DNA of 64,000 nt from Aquamicrobium lusatiense. Lineage in GTDB: Bacteria > Pseudomonadota > Alphaproteobacteria > Rhizobiales > Rhizobiaceae. Shown piece by piece: positions 9,797-52,888 of this stretch. The position numbers and the translations under genes are program-made. Positions within the stretch are counted from its first letter, which is position 1. Each line of letters starts with the position of its first letter. The DNA is taken from NCBI RefSeq assembly GCF_014201615.1, contig NZ_JACHEU010000001.1, positions 1,259,631-1,323,630 on the forward strand, written 5' to 3'. Below the pieces are notes generated by a model. It saw only the letters and a list, made by a program, of their open reading frames with translations. It did no database searches and was not told the DNA's origin.

Positions 9797-10780
<984 letters not shown>

Positions 10781-23735: not shown

Positions 23736-24082
23736 GGCAGGATCACCAGATCAAAGCTTACAACCCAGTCGATGCCGCGCGGCACCCATCGGGGCATGTC
23801 GCGGCCGAACTGGACAATCCATGTTCCCGGCTCGTCCTGCGCCGGGAACGTGAAGGGTTTGACGCCACCAGCGGTGTCCGTCGTCACAAAAGTCTTGAAG
23901 ATCGCCAGTTGACCAGCGTTCATGTGCATGGAGAAGGTCAGCGGCCGGGGAGCAGCAGAAAACCTTCGTCGCATCTTGGCAATGCCGGAATCCGTCTCGG
24001 TGCGGGCACGGCCGTCGCCAAAGCCCGACTGATACCCATCGCGCAGCGCTCGCTGCGGAAGTGTTGCCGGCCACGCGATCAT
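23732..24082 (-). CDS. Minor tail protein (M-like)
   Basis: 116 residues, starting MIAWPATLPQRALRDGYQSG, with the phage-type GRARTETDSGIAKMRRRF stretch and a C-terminus WIVQFGRDMPRWVPRG. Small tail-tip proteins of this pattern follow the tape measure in many alphaproteobacterial siphophages. ATGA overlaps join it to the tape measure upstream and the DUF1833 gene downstream. Confidence 0.78.
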   Translation of the reverse strand: MIAWPATLPQRALRDGYQSGFGDGRARTETDSGIAKMRRRFSAAPRPLTFSMHMNAGQLAIFKTFVTTDTAGGVKPFTFPAQDEPGTWIVQFGRDMPRWVPRGIDWVVSFDLVILP

Positions 24083-27000
24083 CGACGCACCACCTGATTT
24101 GAAAGGCCATAAGCGCCACGCAGTTGGCGATTGGTTGCAGCAGATGGCCGCCCCACCTCATCCTGTGTCGTGCGGCGGATAAGAATGTCGAGTTGACGCG
24201 TTCCGTCCGCCCCAACGGTTTCCCGCTGCTCGACCTCAGGCGCTCCGGCCTCTCGCTGATCGATGACGTTGACCACCATGCCACGGTCGGAGCCTATCCG
24301 GCTTGGCGTCGGAACAGGGCCACCCGCAAAGCCGCCGCTTGCCAATCCGCGCCCGCGCCGGCCCGCCTCATGGAGCGATGACAGATAGTCGACACCCAGA
24401 TTGGCGGTGGCCTCCTTGGAGAAATAGAACTCGCCGCGGTGCGCGAGACCAGCTACCTGATACTTGTCGCCGTCGCCGGTATAGCCGCCCCTGTCGTAAA
24501 GCCCCCACGAACCGGAAAGGATGTTTCCGGTGGCTGCGGGGGATATCGACAGCATATGGTTCATGGCGCCGCTTATGCCGCCAAACATCGACGACAAGCC
24601 CTGAAACCATAATGATCCGCCGCCGGTGGGTGACTGAAGGAAAGAGCCAAGCCCTTTCCACAGATCGCCCATCCCCTTGCCAATGTCGCCCAGACCGGCC
24701 TGCAAGCCCTTGCTGAAGTCTGTCGCGCCGCCGGTGGCAGCACCCAGCGCGCGATTGAACTTGTCGACATAAGCGGCACCCGAGGTGCCGAGCACGTCGA
24801 CCGCATTCTTCCCGCTCGCCAGCGGACGCCCGGTGAACCATGTCGAGGCCGCATCCTGCGGGTTTCCGTATTTGGAGATGTAGCTGCCGAACTTGTTCTC
24901 GAAGATCGCATCCTGAATGCTGGGCGAGGCCATGAATTCCGCGCGCGAAACCCTTCGGCCCAGCGCCTCCATCGACCATGACGGCAGGTTCGACTGCATC
25001 ATGCCGTAAGCGCCGAGCGCCTGATTGCCGTTGCTCAGCAGCGGCCCGAGGGCGGAATAACCTCCATTGCCAGCGCTTTCGATTGATCGGATCGCAGCCG
25101 CATATGACGACATGGTCGATGTAGGCTGATACTCCCCACCCATCTTTCCAGACGAGAAAAGGCGATCCAGAATATCGGCGCCGGCGTTCATGTCAATCGA
25201 GCCGGTCAGCATGACAGACCCGGCATTTACGGTCATCGCGCCGACACTCTGAAAACCTGATGCAGGGTTCGCCGTTTGCCCCAGCAACGTCCCCAGAAAT
25301 CCGCCGGCGCCGCCGATATCATCCAGAGTCGGCAGGCCCGCACCGTAAATTGCGTTTTTCAGCGGATTGGCGACGGACAGCTGCAGTATCTGTCGGGTGA
25401 TGTCGCTGGCGATGCCCTCGAAAGTCTCACCGATATCGTCAAAGCCCCGGCTGGCGCTGCTCACCAGTTGGTCGATCGCGTCCATGCCGGTGTCACGAAT
25501 TTCGTTCCAGATACCCACACGCTGCTTGAGGATCGCATTGATACGGATCTCGCGTGCAGCCTCGCCATCCAGATCAACGGCCTGACCTATGCCGCGCAAC
25601 TGGCTGGCAACCTGCTGATCAAGCGGAGTGCGCGCCAACTGATCCCGCTCGAACTGAAGGTCGCTGCCGAGCTTTGCCAGCGCCAGCGCATCTGCATAGC
25701 GGGCCATCTCAGCAGCTGCGGCGCGAATAAGGGCCACCTCTTTCTGATCGATCGGAGCGCCAGTGCGCGCAGCCTGCTCGCGCAATTCCTGCATGCGCTC
25801 GAACTCAAACCGCAGCTTGGCCTGCTCGCCACCGGTTTTGCCGATCAGGTCGAGTTCAAGACGCTGCTGCTGAAGCGAGCGCTCGATTGACTGGGCACGC
25901 TGGATGGCGGCATCACGAGCCTCGACTTCCTGTCGGGTTCGCTCTTCGGCAAGGGCGCGATCTACGCGCGCCTGCAAGCCGCCGCCGGTGTCGCCATCTT
26001 CACGCGCCCGGGAACGCACTTGCGCCTCTATGGCGGCGAGGCGCTCGGCATTGCTCCGCGCACGCGCCATTTGTTGCTCGGCTGCGAACTGGTCGTTAAG
26101 AGTGCCAAGATCAGCAGCGCGTCGATTGACATAGGCGCCCAGCGCGCGGCGGTCGGCAAGGCCCGGGCGGGTTTCTTCCCGATCGATGCGCCGCAGTATT
26201 TCTTCCAGCGCCTTTGCCTTGTCAGCGAGAGAGACAATTTCCTTACCGGCGAGAATCGCCTCGTCTGCCAGCTTGCGCAGGCCTTTCTGCTGTCCAAGAC
26301 GTTCGATTTCGGTGTTGAAAGCCGACAGGTTTGGCTTTCCATCCGCCGCCTCCACCCTCAGCCGGTTGATCGCGTCCGCGAACGGAGCAAATTTCCCGCT
26401 CACCTCAAAAGCATTGGCGCCAAGCAATTGAACGGCGTCCGCCGTCGCACGCAACCGAGCTGGATTGTCGGTTTTGCCCAGCGCCCTCTCAAAAAGCCGC
26501 TCAACCTCTTCGTTGAAGGCAGCAAGATCGGTTTTCCCGCTCTTCGCGCTCTCGATGAGAGCAGCCATGGGTGCTGCGAACTGCTTCTGATCACCCGACA
26601 GATTGCGCAGCGCCTCGATGCCGCCACCATTGCCAAAAAAACCCTTAACCCAACCGGTTCCACCCAGAGTATCGAGAAAGGGACCGCTTCTTTCGCGGAT
26701 CTGAGCCTGAATCAACGTCTGAGCATCCCGGCTCGTCGCGCCGGTGAAGGCCATGCCCCCGGCATTGCCTGCCGTTTTCGCAGCCTCTCCAAGCTCGCCA
26801 TACTGGTCTTTAAGCAACCGCAGGGATTCAGAGTGAGCCTTCAGGGCATCATCAAGCGACTTCGCTCCATCCTTGCCTTTCATTGCCCACTGAATGGTCG
26901 CAGCGGTTGCCGCCGTAAAGCCGACCGTCAGCAAGGTTGTCATGCTGAATACGGATGCCAGACCAGCACCCAGCGCCGTCAGACCGCCGCCCTGCTGAAT

Positions 27001-27609
27001 GGCGGTTGCAAGCTGCGGACCCTGCTGGAGGGCCAGCGTGCGCGGATCCTGACCGATCAGCGACATCATGGCGATGTCCTGCAACTGCTGACCAGCGTTG
27101 AACCCCGCAGCGCGCTTTGCCTCGGCCGATATCGTGTTGGAGTTCGCAGCCTGCACTCGACGGCTGGCAGCCTCGGCGGCGACGAGATCATTTGCCTGAC
27201 GGGCAATCTGAATGTTCGCGCGCTCGACAGCAGCCGCGAGCGACATCTGCCCCTTGGCTGCGAGATCGGATGCATTGGCGGTCAGGCCGAGACGCTGATT
27301 CATGCCGACAAGGATGCGCTCAGCACCTTCGGCACTGATCTTGCCACTTTCCAGCCCGCGATTGAGTTGCCTCAAGCCCTGCTCGAAACGCTGCTGTGAT
27401 GCATATCCCTCGACATACTGACGCGAGAGCCGCGCCAGCACATCTCCACTGGTGCTGATCTTTGCAGATGTGTCGACGACAGCCGCACCCGCTTCGCGCG
27501 ACGAAGCTGCCATGGCCTTATCGGCGGCAACCTTGTCCTGTGCACCAGCGGTATATTTTGAGGCATCGACGGCAGGCTGCACAATCAGCGATGAAATCTG
27601 TGTGACCAA
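24079..27609 (-). CDS. Tail tape measure protein with embedded SLT muramidase domain
   Basis: 1176 residues from the TTG at 27609, chosen because GGAG lies 7-8 bases upstream; the ORF start at 27672 would overlap the chaperone by 49 bp. The N-terminal half is helical and Ala/Gln-rich. The TMP signature NAGQQLQDIAMMSLIGQDPR is followed by hydrophobic segments (GLTALGAGLASVFS, TVGFTAATAATIQW). Around residue 890-1010 lies a lysozyme-like transglycosylase domain (YAAAIRSIESAGNGGYSALG, then ALGAYGMMQ), with the Glu of the IESAG segment as putative acid. The protein sets tail length and probably opens the cell wall during DNA entry. Confidence 0.9.
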   Translation of the reverse strand: MVTQISSLIVQPAVDASKYTAGAQDKVAADKAMAASSREAGAAVVDTSAKISTSGDVLARLSRQYVEGYASQQRFEQGLRQLNRGLESGKISAEGAERILVGMNQRLGLTANASDLAAKGQMSLAAAVERANIQIARQANDLVAAEAASRRVQAANSNTISAEAKRAAGFNAGQQLQDIAMMSLIGQDPRTLALQQGPQLATAIQQGGGLTALGAGLASVFSMTTLLTVGFTAATAATIQWAMKGKDGAKSLDDALKAHSESLRLLKDQYGELGEAAKTAGNAGGMAFTGATSRDAQTLIQAQIRERSGPFLDTLGGTGWVKGFFGNGGGIEALRNLSGDQKQFAAPMAALIESAKSGKTDLAAFNEEVERLFERALGKTDNPARLRATADAVQLLGANAFEVSGKFAPFADAINRLRVEAADGKPNLSAFNTEIERLGQQKGLRKLADEAILAGKEIVSLADKAKALEEILRRIDREETRPGLADRRALGAYVNRRAADLGTLNDQFAAEQQMARARSNAERLAAIEAQVRSRAREDGDTGGGLQARVDRALAEERTRQEVEARDAAIQRAQSIERSLQQQRLELDLIGKTGGEQAKLRFEFERMQELREQAARTGAPIDQKEVALIRAAAAEMARYADALALAKLGSDLQFERDQLARTPLDQQVASQLRGIGQAVDLDGEAAREIRINAILKQRVGIWNEIRDTGMDAIDQLVSSASRGFDDIGETFEGIASDITRQILQLSVANPLKNAIYGAGLPTLDDIGGAGGFLGTLLGQTANPASGFQSVGAMTVNAGSVMLTGSIDMNAGADILDRLFSSGKMGGEYQPTSTMSSYAAAIRSIESAGNGGYSALGPLLSNGNQALGAYGMMQSNLPSWSMEALGRRVSRAEFMASPSIQDAIFENKFGSYISKYGNPQDAASTWFTGRPLASGKNAVDVLGTSGAAYVDKFNRALGAATGGATDFSKGLQAGLGDIGKGMGDLWKGLGSFLQSPTGGGSLWFQGLSSMFGGISGAMNHMLSISPAATGNILSGSWGLYDRGGYTGDGDKYQVAGLAHRGEFYFSKEATANLGVDYLSSLHEAGRRGRGLASGGFAGGPVPTPSRIGSDRGMVVNVIDQREAGAPEVEQRETVGADGTRQLDILIRRTTQDEVGRPSAATNRQLRGAYGLSNQVVRR

Positions 27610-27623
27610 TGGATTTCTCCGGC

Positions 27624-27998
27624 TTATTCGTCGGTCTTTTGAGACTGGGAGCGCGCCACATGCTCCAGCCACTCATCATCCAGCGCCGTCACGAACGCGA
27701 GGAACCGCTCGAACGCCTCGCCCTCGATGCCGTAGCGCCGGGCATATCCGTCCAGCGCCATGAAGCTGATCGGCGTTTCCCCGCCGAATGCGCCATATTG
27801 GCGATCGAAACGCAGCACCTGCCACGCCCGCAGGTAAAAGGCGTGCCATGCTTCCGGCTCGGCACCGGCAGGCGGCTTTTCAACCGCCCGCTCCAGCCAC
27901 TTCTCGCCCGGATAGGCCCTGATGAGTTCTTCGATCCACTCTTCGTGCTCTGGCGCCTTCCTGCTTATTTGCCAGCGGAAGGCGCTTCGGAGTTTTTT
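27624..27998 (-). CDS. Tail assembly chaperone, frameshift-only C-terminal part (lambda T-like)
   Basis: This frame has no good start of its own near its beginning. It continues the upstream chaperone after a -1 slip at 27992-27998, adding about 122 residues (LRSAFRWQISRKAPEHEEW onward to the stop at 27624). The extension is helical and charged (WIEELIRAYPGEKWLERAVE). In lambda the G-T fusion recruits the tail tube subunits to the tape measure. The fused product would be about 267 residues. It lies immediately before the tape measure gene. Confidence 0.78.
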   Translation of the reverse strand, partial: KKLRSAFRWQISRKAPEHEEWIEELIRAYPGEKWLERAVEKPPAGAEPEAWHAFYLRAWQVLRFDRQYGAFGGETPISFMALDGYARRYGIEGEAFERFLAFVTALDDEWLEHVARSQSQKTDE

Positions 27999-39409: not shown

Positions 39410-39488
39410 CGACGATCCTCTTGCCACCACAAGCTACGTTTGATTACTAGGCGCGGGGTTTGATTTGATCTGGAGAAGGGACGGGGGC

Positions 39489-40010
39489 TTGACTGTGCGC
39501 AGCAAGGCAAGAGCTTATTTCGACGTGCTTGTAGGTTTGGTTGGTGTCGCTGCCGGCGCCATAAGCGTTTGGCAGTTCGTACTGCCGACACAACGGCAAG
39601 ATGCCTACCTTGAAGGAAAGAAGGAAATTGCTGCAGAAGTCGTGATGGCTCTTTCAGAAGCCGGGTTCAACACGAACCCAGCCGAGACGGCGTTGCAGGA
39701 CGGCAAATATAGCGAAGCTGTTACACTTGCCACGCAGGCCACACTAGCGCCTCCCGTTGCCACCATTCCAGACCAACCCTTCAAGCTTCGCGATGGAGAG
39801 GTGATCGATCTTCCCAGCGGAGACATGCTGTCCTTTCGCTTTGTAAGCAGCCCTGAAAAGATCGTCATCGTTGCGGGCGACGAGAAATCGCCGGCGATAC
39901 GCCGTGGTGAATCCTACGTTCATTCGGGTGGATGCCAAATCGATTACATCGATCTTGAGACCGAAGGTTACAGCAATCACACGGCCACGCTTCGCGCGAA
40001 GTGCGAATAG
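39489..40010 (+). CDS. Membrane-anchored protein of unknown function (accessory)
   Basis: 173 residues from the TTG at 39489, which has GGAGAAGGG 9 bases upstream; TTG 39465 and GTG 39495 are alternatives. One N-terminal transmembrane helix (YFDVLVGLVGVAAGAISVWQ), then a polar helical part (KKEIAAEVVMALSEAG) and a beta-rich C-terminal part with CQIDYIDLETEGY. No family recognised. It reads rightward within the leftward prophage and is AT-richer, so it is likely a later insertion (moron). Confidence 0.6.
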   Translation: MTVRSKARAYFDVLVGLVGVAAGAISVWQFVLPTQRQDAYLEGKKEIAAEVVMALSEAGFNTNPAETALQDGKYSEAVTLATQATLAPPVATIPDQPFKLRDGEVIDLPSGDMLSFRFVSSPEKIVIVAGDEKSPAIRRGESYVHSGGCQIDYIDLETEGYSNHTATLRAKCE

Positions 40011-40178: not shown

Positions 40179-40655
40179 CTACTGTGATGTGGGCGTTGTT
40201 TTCCGCCTTTTAATTTCCTCTTCCATTCTTTCCTTTTGGATAGACATTAAGCTGTAAGGCAGTGGCAGGGACATCAGCAATGCGAACACGGTCACACCAG
40301 CTAAAATGGAAAAAGGCCAATCGTGACAAGCGATTTTATTTTCTTGGATGACTGTACAAGCTAATACCAAGATGAGGTTGATGACATACACGAACACCAA
40401 GTGAGCATAGTTTCCAATCCTGACTTGAATGTCTTTGGCATGCTCATGTCCCAAGCGCCAATTTCCTGTCAGAAGCATTGACGGATCGCCTATGATCGAA
40501 ATGACCGCGACCAATACACCCGCTAGAATGGAAAAGACGGAAGTAATTCCAGCAAGCGCGGCCGGCGATCCGACAAGTAATGGTCCAACTTTTACGGCGG
40601 CCCATGCTCCCAAGGCCGCGCTTGCTAAGATGTACGCCCGTGCAATGGTAATCAT
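40179..40655 (-). CDS. Four-helix membrane protein, RexB-like partner
   Basis: 158 residues. Four hydrophobic segments: YILASAALGAWAAVKVGPLL (8-27), SVFSILAGVLVAVISIIG (about 39-56), AHLVFVYVINLILVLACTVI (83-102) and FSILAGVTVFALLMSLPLPY (about 113-132). A basic, cytoplasmic-looking C-terminus follows. The start overlaps the upstream stop as ATGA, so the two genes are coupled. Size, topology, gene order and prophage location parallel lambda RexB (144 residues, four helices, ion-channel effector). No direct homology is claimed. The alternative is a KwaA-like or unrelated membrane effector. Confidence 0.6.
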   Translation of the reverse strand: MITIARAYILASAALGAWAAVKVGPLLVGSPAALAGITSVFSILAGVLVAVISIIGDPSMLLTGNWRLGHEHAKDIQVRIGNYAHLVFVYVINLILVLACTVIQENKIACHDWPFSILAGVTVFALLMSLPLPYSLMSIQKERMEEEIKRRKTTPTSQ

Positions 40656-41566
40656 TGCTCAAATATCCCGGCACTTCGCCACTCCTTCATAGCGCTGCGG
40701 ATGGCTGAGAATGCGCTTGCTGTGTCAATCGCGATCTCATCGCCTTCGACACTAACCTCCCTACGTATAACCAGCTTCGTACGTGTGATCACGTTATCAT
40801 CTCTGGTCACGATCTTGAATTCATCTTCGGTGTCGGTGATCCCATCGGCAATTTTTGCGAGCAAGAACGGAACTAGATGTCCAGCAGAACGACCATCATA
40901 GCCGAGATGAATGCTCGTTTGAATTTCACTTGCTGCCAGCATCTCTTCAGGAGAACGCCCTTTTGCACCCAGTTGAGCTAAGGGCGCCAAGATGGATCCG
41001 ATGGCGGCGGACAACGAACCTTTCGTCACCTCGTGGTTGATGTCATTCACGGTCGTCTCAAAAGCCGATATCCCTAGGTCGATGGATTTTACACCAGCTT
41101 TGAGCAACTTCTCTATCTGCTGCCTATCGGCCCTCGGATGAAGATGGAATTGTGTTTCGCTTTTTGGCCTTTTCGCATGCTCGATGAAGCGCTGGAAAAG
41201 CCCTGTTATCTGACCATCGTTGGTATGGCCATCAGCGAGGTAACCCACATGGTTTCCTTCTACGACCAAGTGAATTCCTGTTCTCAAGAATTCTTGACCC
41301 GTCGGCGCTTTATGGCGACCGACACCAGGACCACCATTAGCCACCGTCGCAGCCTTGCGTCCCTCAGAATACAGGGTGAAGTACAATGCTGTGCCTCCTG
41401 CAGAGAGGCTTCGCTCCGATATTTGAACGTCAGTATCGGACTTGTATTCGAACTTGGTAGAGGAAACGTCCGGACAGTTGCCAAGACAGAGATTCAGAAT
41501 CTTCTCTAGTGTTGAGCCACCATCCGCCGCCCAAAGCGCACGCCTGTAATGAGCAACCTTATACAA
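40652..41566 (-). CDS. Soluble partner of the four-helix membrane protein, RexA-like
   Basis: 304 residues from a TTG at 41566 with GGGAGGAT 6 bases upstream. No membrane segment or signal. The segment GIHLVVEGNHVGYLADGHTN resembles in pattern the VEGD-x-IGF region I recall for lambda RexA (279 residues). The middle is helical (IEKLLKAGVKSIDLGISAFE), the C-terminal third is beta then helical. It is cotranscribed with the membrane gene. Base composition is lower in GC than the flanking phage genes. A RexA-like sensor role is an inference. KwaB-type (DUF4868) or a wholly new family are alternatives. Confidence 0.55.
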   Translation of the reverse strand: MYKVAHYRRALWAADGGSTLEKILNLCLGNCPDVSSTKFEYKSDTDVQISERSLSAGGTALYFTLYSEGRKAATVANGGPGVGRHKAPTGQEFLRTGIHLVVEGNHVGYLADGHTNDGQITGLFQRFIEHAKRPKSETQFHLHPRADRQQIEKLLKAGVKSIDLGISAFETTVNDINHEVTKGSLSAAIGSILAPLAQLGAKGRSPEEMLAASEIQTSIHLGYDGRSAGHLVPFLLAKIADGITDTEDEFKIVTRDDNVITRTKLVIRREVSVEGDEIAIDTASAFSAIRSAMKEWRSAGIFEQ

Positions 41567-41806
41567 AAATATCCTCCCTTATTCCCCGTCATGATCAAAG
41601 CGGGGAAATCAGAGAGAGTCCAGTGCGACGTTTGTTCCAGATGTTGAGCCAGCGGCTAAACGCTGCCGCTTCTCAGGATTCAGCGAAGTGAGGAAAAGGG
41701 CGCATTTCCCCCTAGTGTCGGCGGTGAATTCCGACGCTGCTCCGGCAGGTGGCGCTAAGGCCCCGCTCATGACGAGCAAATCACCAAGTTCATTACGGAG
41801 CCGAAA
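41567..41806. other. 240-bp gap with a hairpin upstream of the RexA-like gene
   Basis: Contains the inverted repeat TTCCCCG (41582-41588) / CGGGGAA (41601-41607) just upstream of the ribosome-binding site of the RexA-like gene, and AGCGG/CCGCT around 41651-41671. No gene of useful length is seen. The dyads could be an operator, a terminator for the NusG transcript, or a leader structure. Confidence 0.4.
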
Positions 41807-50156: not shown

Positions 50157-50372
50157 TTAACCGGGTTGGTGGGTGATATGGCTCGGAGAGGTGGCCGCCT
50201 CTGCCGGGCCTTTTTCGTTCTCGCTCCGAATGGCGCAGTCAAGAACGTGGATAATTTCCGAGTTCATGGAGCGCTTATTTGCCACGGCACGCTCACGAAT
50301 GCGGGTTCGCATGCCGTCTGGCAGGCGAAGGGTGTATTTGTCGGGGCCGCCGCTGGCAGAAACTTGCTTCAC
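50157..50372 (-). CDS. Arc-family ribbon-helix-helix regulator
   Basis: 71 residues from the GTG at 50372 with GGAAGGAGAAA upstream. The core GPDKYTLRLPDGMRTRIRER, then ANKRSMNSEIIHVLDCAI, is the ribbon-helix-helix fold: a beta strand giving base contacts, then two helices. Proteins of this type (P22 Arc and Mnt) are dimeric repressors. It is the first gene of the leftward arm of the immunity region and is divergent from a second Arc-like gene, with three palindromes between. Confidence 0.85.
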   Translation of the reverse strand: MKQVSASGGPDKYTLRLPDGMRTRIRERAVANKRSMNSEIIHVLDCAIRSENEKGPAEAATSPSHITHQPG

Positions 50373-50505: not shown

Positions 50506-51354
50506 ATGGCAAAGGGACCCGCCCAACCTCAGGACAAGTACGTTGTTCGATTCCCTGACGGGATGCGGGAGAAGCTCAAAGGGCTGGCCACGGAACACAA
50601 GCGATCTCTCAACGCTGAGATCATTGCGCGCTTGGCTGAATTTGAGGAAATGGACGCGCGTCTCTACGATGCCCTCGAAGAGAACGAGCGGTTGACCGCT
50701 GAAGTATCGGCGCTGCGCGTGATCAAAGCCCAATTCAACGAGATCGGGGATCGCCTCTTTGACGAAAGTGGCAACGTGAAACCGTTTGTGGTTGTTCCTC
50801 CCGATTTGTTGGACCGCATCCGCAGGGCCGCAAATGGAAGCTATCGGACTATAGATGCCGAGGTAATAGCTACACTTGAGGAGGCCTACCCCAACACGTC
50901 TGCTTTCCTTCGGGATTTGAAGTTTTTCTATTTTCAATGGGGGTCAGGCACATGGCACACGGTCGATGAAGACTCGTGGGCGCGGTTTAAATCTGGAGAA
51001 GTGCCTAAGCACATTGCGGACAGAATGAGCGAAAGAGACAACTACTTTGCTGTCGCGGTGATCGATGCGGAATGCGGTCTAGTAAATGTAATTCCGCATA
51101 ATTATCATATTAGCGATGGTGGGGCTGTTTGGGCGGCATACGAGTTGCTTACAGATGAGGAGAAAGAAAATTACGCCCGATTGATGACCTCAGCCAACAT
51201 GAAAGAAGAGGACGAGAAAAGAATTAAGGAGCTTCGAGACAAGATGGCTCCAGCGATATCGCTACCGCCAGACGCGATTTCCCATCTGCGCCAGATGTTG
51301 AGCGGACTTGCACCTGATGATGAGCTTGATGTCATCTTTGAGCGGTTAGCTTAA
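50506..51354 (+). CDS. Tandem Arc-like ribbon-helix-helix repressor
   Basis: 282 residues, AAGG about 9 bases before the ATG. Residues 1-50 are an Arc domain (DKYVVRFPDGMREKLKGLAT). Residues about 95-130 look like a second one (VVVPPDLLDRIRRAANGSYR, IDAEVIATLEEAYPN), joined by a short helical linker. The C-terminal part (residues 140-282) is of unknown type with FAVAVIDAECGLVNVI. There is no CI/LexA-like repressor elsewhere in the prophage, so this is the best candidate for the lysogeny repressor or its antagonist. Confidence 0.78.
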   Translation: MAKGPAQPQDKYVVRFPDGMREKLKGLATEHKRSLNAEIIARLAEFEEMDARLYDALEENERLTAEVSALRVIKAQFNEIGDRLFDESGNVKPFVVVPPDLLDRIRRAANGSYRTIDAEVIATLEEAYPNTSAFLRDLKFFYFQWGSGTWHTVDEDSWARFKSGEVPKHIADRMSERDNYFAVAVIDAECGLVNVIPHNYHISDGGAVWAAYELLTDEEKENYARLMTSANMKEEDEKRIKELRDKMAPAISLPPDAISHLRQMLSGLAPDDELDVIFERLA

Positions 51355-51441: not shown

Positions 51442-52671
51442 TTAAAGCCCCATCTGGCGGCTGACTTCCTCGGCAACCTTATCCGCTACGGCAATCAGCA
51501 CCGAATCCAGCCTGTGGGTGTAGCGCGAGGTGATCGTCGTTCCCGCATGGCCGAGCAGTGCACCTATGGTGGCGTCTGAGTAGTCGAGATCAGCCGCCAC
51601 CGAGGCGAAGGAATGCCGGAACGTATGGGCCGAAACGTCTTCCAGCTTGACCGCCGCAAGCAGGCGCTTCAGAGCGGCAGGGAACCCGCCGTAGGGTTGA
51701 TCCTCATTGTGCGCGCCGGGCAGAACGTAAGCGGCCTTGTCCTTGCAGGGAAGGCTCTTGAGCAAGTCAACGACCGGGCTTCCAATCGGCCTGACTGACG
51801 CCCCGGTCTTCGTGTCGCCCAAGTGCAGTGCACTGCCGTCAAGATCGACCTCCGACCATTTCAGCTTTTCGATTTCGCCGCGCCGGCATCCGGTCAGCAG
51901 CAGCAGCTTGGCGAACGCCACCGCCTGCCACGCCTGCGATGCATCGGTTAGCGCCTTGCCGATCGCCTTGTATTCGTCCGCAGTCAGCCGTCGCCGCTTC
52001 TTCTTGTCGGTGGGTCGTTTGACGCCATGGACCGGATTTCGATCGATGATCCCTTCGGATACCGCAAAGGACAGAATGCCGCCGAGCAGGCCGGTAGTGC
52101 GGCTGGCCGTTCCCGCGCCGCCCTCGACGATGATCCGACCCCGCAGCTTGTCGCTTTTCTCGACCTTCGCCGTCTTGCCGACCGTCACGTCGCGGATGAA
52201 TTTTGCGATGTCGGAGGTTTTGAGATCGATCACCAGCTTTCGGCCCAACAACGGCTTTATGTGCTGATCGATCCTGCCCTTGTCGCTGTAGAGCGTCGAA
52301 GGCTTTTTCGGCTGGCCGCTGCGCCCGATGATCAGCCCTTTGTCCGCCGCTTCAACGTACCTGTCGCAAAGCTCAGACAATGTAATCGATCCGCGCCGGG
52401 TCTTGCGCTCGGTCGCCGGATCCTCACCAGCAAGGGCATTTCCAAGATTGATCCGGGCGAGCTTCCGAGCCTCGTCAACCGTCAGCTTGCCGAAGGGGCC
52501 GATGGACATTCTTTTCCGTTGGCCGTCAGAATTATAGTAGTCAACATAGAACGTCTTCCGACCGTTCGGGAACACGCGTGCACCGAAGCCAGGCAGTTCC
52601 GAGCACCAGACGAAATAGGGCGTCGTCCGCGCTTCCAGACCGTCCAGATAACCCTTTGTCAGCTTTGCCAT
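51442..52671 (-). CDS. Tyrosine recombinase / prophage integrase
   Basis: 409 residues. The N-terminal ~90 residues form the arm-binding DUF4102-type region (LPGFGARVFPNGRKTFYVDY). A core-binding SAM-like domain follows, and the catalytic domain carries Arg263 (TGCRRGEIEKL), Lys288 (TKTG), His349/Arg352 (SAHTFRHSFAS), His375 (LLGHAG) and Tyr384 (ITSRYTH). It is next to attR and mediates integration into the tRNA-Arg gene. The start ATG is at 52671. Confidence 0.95.
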   Translation of the reverse strand: MAKLTKGYLDGLEARTTPYFVWCSELPGFGARVFPNGRKTFYVDYYNSDGQRKRMSIGPFGKLTVDEARKLARINLGNALAGEDPATERKTRRGSITLSELCDRYVEAADKGLIIGRSGQPKKPSTLYSDKGRIDQHIKPLLGRKLVIDLKTSDIAKFIRDVTVGKTAKVEKSDKLRGRIIVEGGAGTASRTTGLLGGILSFAVSEGIIDRNPVHGVKRPTDKKKRRRLTADEYKAIGKALTDASQAWQAVAFAKLLLLTGCRRGEIEKLKWSEVDLDGSALHLGDTKTGASVRPIGSPVVDLLKSLPCKDKAAYVLPGAHNEDQPYGGFPAALKRLLAAVKLEDVSAHTFRHSFASVAADLDYSDATIGALLGHAGTTITSRYTHRLDSVLIAVADKVAEEVSRQMGL

Positions 52672-52840: not shown

Positions 52841-52888
52841 CCCTCCGAAGGCGAAGGTCACAGGTTCGAATCCTGTCGGGTGCGCCAA
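52841..52888 (+). repeat. attR: 48-bp core copy of the tRNA-Arg 3' end
   Basis: Identical to 9902-9949. It is preceded by TTGAT rather than tRNA sequence, so this copy is not a functional tRNA gene; it marks the right junction with host DNA. Confidence 0.95.

Follow-up and report, generated by a model that had tools for sequence, protein, structure and literature searches.

Which kind of system is encoded by two overlapping genes in a prophage of Aquamicrobium lusatiense, and how is it related to the RexA-RexB pair of phage lambda? The window, which is the whole stretch of DNA analysed, is 64,000 nucleotides long (contig NZ_JACHEU010000001.1, positions 1,259,631 to 1,323,630). Gene A (41566..40652, minus strand) encodes a soluble protein of 304 amino acids (aa) with a predicted RexA fold, a putative DNA-binding phage sensor. 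Gene B (40655..40179, minus strand) encodes a 158-aa protein with four transmembrane helices, a putative membrane effector. It is probable that A and B constitute a RexAB-type abortive-infection pair, which is carried by a temperate phage and benefits its lysogen. The gene anatomy, a RexA-like predicted fold and a constant pairing with small membrane proteins are shown here, and A is homologous to genes that occupy the cI-rexA-rexB position in other phages. RexAB was the first abortive-infection system seen, and to our knowledge its trigger is still unknown.

The open reading frame (ORF) of A starts with TTG, preceded by the ribosome-binding site GGGAGG (41573..41578, minus strand, read from the sequence), and that of B with ATG. 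The end of A and the start of B share a four-base ATGA overlap, so that a gene for a four-transmembrane protein directly follows A on the same strand, as in RexAB. Four hydrophobic segments are found in B and none in A. The GC content is 50.9% in A and 47.6% in B, versus 59.2% in the whole prophage. An earlier note on this DNA had given these sizes, the ATGA coupling, the AT-richness relative to flanking phage genes and a four-helix B; all of these hold, and its coordinates are exact.

The A protein was modelled with AlphaFold2 and compared by Foldseek and VIA-align with lambda RexA (PDB 8TWQ). Its only two PDB matches at E ≤ 1e-3 are lambda RexA, and the second aligner likewise places lambda RexA first, as the earlier note would predict. 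The RexA layout, a globular domain split around a dimerisation domain as described in PMC11077077, is seen in the two-domain model of A, at the level of predicted structure. The predicted fold, together with homology to genes at the cI-rexA-rexB position, supports the RexA half of the earlier interpretation.

That homology runs through two PHROG families. The match of A to PHROG 26543 has E 1.2e-11, and that to PHROG 3482 is weak (E 0.0047); two relatives of A match the latter at 2.7e-5 and 1.4e-6. Profile-profile comparison of the window family with a five-member PHROG 3482 set covered 289 columns (E 6.5e-12), and none of 60 block shuffles came near. In Escherichia phage Perceval, the CI repressor is directly followed by a PHROG 3482 gene and then by a "transmembrane protein". 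In Acinetobacter phage phi1_092021, the repressor is followed by one small gene, a PHROG 3482 gene labelled "DefenseFinder protein" and a protein with four hydrophobic segments. In Shigella phage SfIV (L048:2405-3827), the PHROG 3482 gene adjoins lysis genes, away from the repressor; the partner membrane protein has a short chain of 108 aa, and its gene is adjacent to an IS1 transposase gene. A sample of 398 genomes from the phylum contained 10 with a relative, counting that of the window. IMG/VR, scanned with the PHROG 3482 group, yielded 120 relatives; the 80 that were kept represent 36 distinct proteins. Among 45 distinct A-like proteins (89 loci, L054-L142; some truncated and several near-identical, hence not independent), 12 have a CI-like repressor 26-281 bp upstream on the same strand, where CI-like means a BLAST match to one of six reference repressors, some of them weak (20-38% identity), and several of the 12 are near-identical. 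At L093, the A-like gene overlaps the CI-like match by 10 bp.

The pairing of A with a membrane protein is more frequent than chance. Database searches matched 67 proteins to A and 139 to B, the window's own included. The sets used were all 67 matches of A (A1), 74 of the 120 listed among the 139 matches of B (A2), lambda RexA with 35 of the 53 hits of another search (A4), and 18 of the 67 matches of A with nine genome loci (A5). In the order sample, A was present in 4 of 297 genomes (own included), and B lay directly beside it in all four; one further genome had B without A, as a 28-residue match. In the family sample, A was present in 10 of 394 genomes (own included). The B family adjoins A or a remnant of A in eight of these ten, and a different 197-aa membrane protein takes the place of B at L019 and L020. 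A partner was taken to be any ORF of 90-260 aa that lies on the same strand, contains two or more hydrophobic segments and starts between -120 and +150 bp of the gene end. Such a partner follows 51 of 51 distinct A-like proteins, versus 2 of 249 non-A ORFs of 250 aa or longer at the same loci; the 51 all have a minimum of 250 aa and of 700 bp of downstream sequence, truncated ones being left out. For the 45 proteins of L054-L142, the next ORF has at least two hydrophobic segments in 42. The remaining three either stop near a contig end (L074 and L113) or are truncated (L080).

These partners belong to the window's B family, to Perceval 42 (PHROG 16807), to phi1_51 (PHROG 4510) or to the 197-aa protein. 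The simplest summary is a conserved sensor combined with exchanged membrane effectors. Alternatively, one effector family may be diverging fast.

B itself is modelled as a four-helix bundle (mean predicted local distance difference test score, pLDDT, 87.5). The RexB half of the interpretation is supported by position and topology and not by sequence similarity, and the interpretation as a whole is partly supported. With PADLOC, B has no RexB match, whereas lambda RexB itself is matched. Similarity between B and the actinophage gp43/gp31 group is not significant; CarolAnn gp43 gave one pairwise P of 0.02, which a shuffle test did not uphold. Nor is B significantly similar to the other partner families. 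Of all these proteins, the closest to B are Perceval 42 (P 0.043) and the 197-aa protein (P 0.036), with 1 of 25 shuffles as high in each case.

Several results weigh against a RexAB assignment. The RexA models of Pfam (PF15969) and PADLOC do not match A up to E 10, and both match lambda RexA as a control. When the profile of A was compared with that of the RexA family, P was 0.13 for the 27-row profile and 0.054 for a broader one, neither of them significant; block shuffling gave scores as high in 2 of 60 cases. B against RexB by hhalign is not significant, with 16 of 25 shuffles as high. Rigid superposition of A on RexA is poor (root-mean-square deviation 13.5-15 Å, template-modelling score 0.37/0.40), and the central domain of the A model is weak (block pLDDT 48-74). 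The pair has no adjacent repressor in the window, and no clear promoter was found for it there; a stricter scan did not report the weak, tentative promoter-like sequence TGGACT-N17-TTTGAT (41594..41622, minus strand, 8 of 12 matches).

Some of these tests also miss accepted relatives. Both RexA models fail to match CarolAnn gp44, and that of Pfam fails to match Sbash gp30, both of which are regarded as Rex-like. The profile test has little power, because lambda RexA against the CarolAnn/Sbash set fails as well. A location downstream of CI, which the window pair lacks, is not strictly defining, because Sbash lacks it too. The segment VEGNHVGY of A, which the earlier note had likened to RexA, corresponds to VEGDTIGF of lambda RexA. 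The unsupervised profile alignment picks the same segment, pairing EFL..VEGNHVGYLA with DESLGF..VEGDTIGFA, and the match is not significant. At the level of sequence, the profile resemblance of A to the RexA family is suggestive only. As A has no match to the RexA sequence models, the pair is considered to be of the RexAB type, not a member of the lambda families.

By analogy with lambda RexAB and RexABpp of Pseudomonas putida, A would form dimers and bind DNA of any sequence. It would be switched when an incoming phage produces a DNA or DNA-protein intermediate. Activated A would then open or assemble B, with loss of membrane integrity or potential and an aborted infection as the result. Detection of DNA or DNA-protein complexes of the phage by A, followed by activation of B, is the most likely mechanism on this analogy, from which we infer protection and every step that goes beyond A's predicted fold and B's topology. 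In P. putida, overexpression of RexA leads to RexB-dependent growth suppression, with membrane leakage in part of the cells, according to PMC12894663.

The roles may instead be reversed, with A as the effector and B holding it inactive at the membrane until infection. Such roles are assigned to mycobacteriophage Butters gp30/gp31 in PMC12894663, and the anatomy is the same, a soluble and a four-transmembrane protein in tandem (PMC7542560). This arrangement is unlikely here. A has the predicted fold of the RexA sensor, and the other four RexAB-like systems need both genes and use the membrane protein as the effector (PMC12894663). Further, the partner family varies while A is kept, a pattern more expected of effectors than of inhibitors that are exchanged, although not decisively.

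Slightly less likely still, the pair works for the life cycle of the phage that carries it, as part of the lysis-lysogeny switch or in prophage protection, rather than anti-phage defence. Lambda RexA alone can bias a bistable switch (PMC11077077), and relatives adjoin CI in several phages. The locations of the window pair and its close relatives are in contrast with such a role. They occupy different places in the late region: L003 and L036 lie beside terminase-type genes, like the window pair, and L002, L004 and L005 lie up to about 2.2 kb upstream of a gene that encodes about 700 aa. The copies of this gene in L004 and L005 match a 1197-aa ORF of the window (24079-27672), a putative tape-measure gene by size and place. 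One relative is on the Sinorhizobium plasmid pSfreGR64b. The distant copies L040, L039 and L044 adjoin resolvase-like or transposase-like genes, so named by reading their sequences, as cargo would. Each side of eight loci was compared, and flanking DNA outside the leader is alike only for L003 and L036. Given the varied places and unlike flanks, the pair fits the usual travel of accessory cargo.

Decayed or truncated copies of A are also observed in other genomes and viral contigs (L018/L044, L022/L045, L066, L080, L086, L087 and L140). Several of them keep B or another membrane partner open beside them.

It is improbable that A acts like RdgC in recombination or DNA coating, with B as a membrane anchor or bystander and no role in defence; A did not fall within the RdgC sequence family. 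A divergent Kiwa system (KwaA-KwaB), which the earlier note had raised for comparison, is the least credible reading: it shares the two-part logic, and one distant relative of B reached E 0.2 with the PADLOC KwaA model, which is noise level, but PADLOC gave no Kiwa match to A or B up to E 10 (its models presumably include KwaB), and the order here, soluble then membrane, is opposite to the kwaA-kwaB order of Kiwa.

The RexAB-type pair lies in a prophage of about 43 kb, in a host genome of 4.39 Mb. An exact direct repeat of 48 bp marks the two ends of the prophage. The attL copy (9902-9949) is in the 3' end of a tRNA-Arg(CCG) gene (9872-9948), and the attR copy (52841-52888) is beside a tyrosine integrase gene (51442-52671). 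The earlier note had placed the pair between an antiterminator and the terminase, and the PHROG labels of the neighbours agree: a NusG-like antiterminator gene is upstream of A, and genes for an HNH endonuclease and the small and large terminase subunits are downstream of B. A convergent ORF between B and the HNH gene (39465-40010, plus strand) was absent from that description. It encodes 181 aa with one N-terminal hydrophobic segment, has no PHROG match and is possibly another cargo gene. No CI-type repressor was found among the ten prophage proteins scanned. Near the integrase, two Arc-like ORFs face each other, one recognised by eye (50157-50372, minus strand) and the other by PHROG (50506-51354, plus strand).

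About 75 nucleotides before A appear alike by eye in the window (leader at 41567-41622, minus strand) and at L002-L006 and L036, and the prophages are otherwise unrelated. The shared parts are a [TA]NGACT box, GCTTT[GC]AT or similar, and a C-rich/G-rich dyad at or including the ribosome site. BLAST backs this likeness only among L002, L004, L005 and L006. In the window, the dyad is tentatively TTCCCCG-N12-CGGGGAA (41582..41607, minus strand). Folding was better than in shuffled sequences for five of seven leaders (z -2.0 to -4.5), the window (-0.98, not significant) and L006 (-0.51) being the others, and no consensus structure was found for the leader. If the box is a promoter, the pair's own transcripts would lack the 5' arm of the dyad and be translated. 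With read-through, the ribosome site could be masked and the pair would stay off during late transcription. An own promoter combined with ribosome-site hiding in read-through is offered as a hypothesis only.

A broader proposal is made tentatively, with less confidence than the assignment of the pair itself. PHROG 26543, PHROG 3482 and the rhizobial clade may together be a RexA-like superfamily of Pseudomonadota that is large and so far unrecognised. In it, a conserved DNA-sensing protein of RexA fold would always be combined with a small membrane effector, exchangeable and drawn from different families, and lambda rexAB would be only one member of a modular sensor-effector class. The rhizobial branch would have left the cI locus and become a mobile cassette whose own leader perhaps silences it under late read-through. 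If the RexAB-type reading of the pair is right, a separate branch is added to the RexAB-like systems, and a function is suggested for two PHROG families listed as unknown (26543 and 3482). Natural sensor-effector combinations would become available to ask what RexA-type proteins sense and by what means a single type of sensor can open membrane proteins that differ from each other.

By the count of a 2026 paper, five RexAB-like systems have been described (PMC12894663), and further homologues are reported from actinophages (PMC11077077). In the open-licence part of PMC, no title or abstract was found that describes this pair or a RexAB-type system in Rhizobiales, or that calls PHROG 3482 or 26543 Rex-like, the PHROG numbers themselves not being search terms.

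As the earlier note had proposed, the pair resembles lambda rexA-rexB in gene order, in size (304/158 aa here versus 279/144 aa in lambda) and in its soluble and four-transmembrane layout, and the predicted fold of A is shared as well. It differs from lambda in that neither A nor B matches the Pfam or PADLOC models, B is unrelated to RexB by sequence, and the pair is not downstream of a CI repressor. RexABpp of P. putida (PP_5643/PP_5644), compared by its description in PMC12894663, is likewise a prophage-borne soluble and four-transmembrane pair, recognised through the RexA structure rather than by BLAST. In contrast to the window pair, it follows a CI-like repressor at a distance of two genes. 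CarolAnn gp44/gp43 and Sbash gp30/gp31 are also soluble and four-transmembrane defence pairs regarded as Rex-like (PMC6426606), but their profile similarity to A or B is not significant. The PHROG 3482 genes of Perceval (43-42) and phi1_092021 are full-length homologues of A with a membrane-protein gene after them. Their partners are of other families (PHROG 16807 and 4510), and the PHROGs entry for 3482 gives its function as unknown. The divergent Rex-type pair proposed earlier is recognised in kind, by the predicted RexA-like fold and the homologues at the cI locus, and not by membership in the lambda families. In that sense, the pair is a new RexAB-type branch with a broader family behind it.
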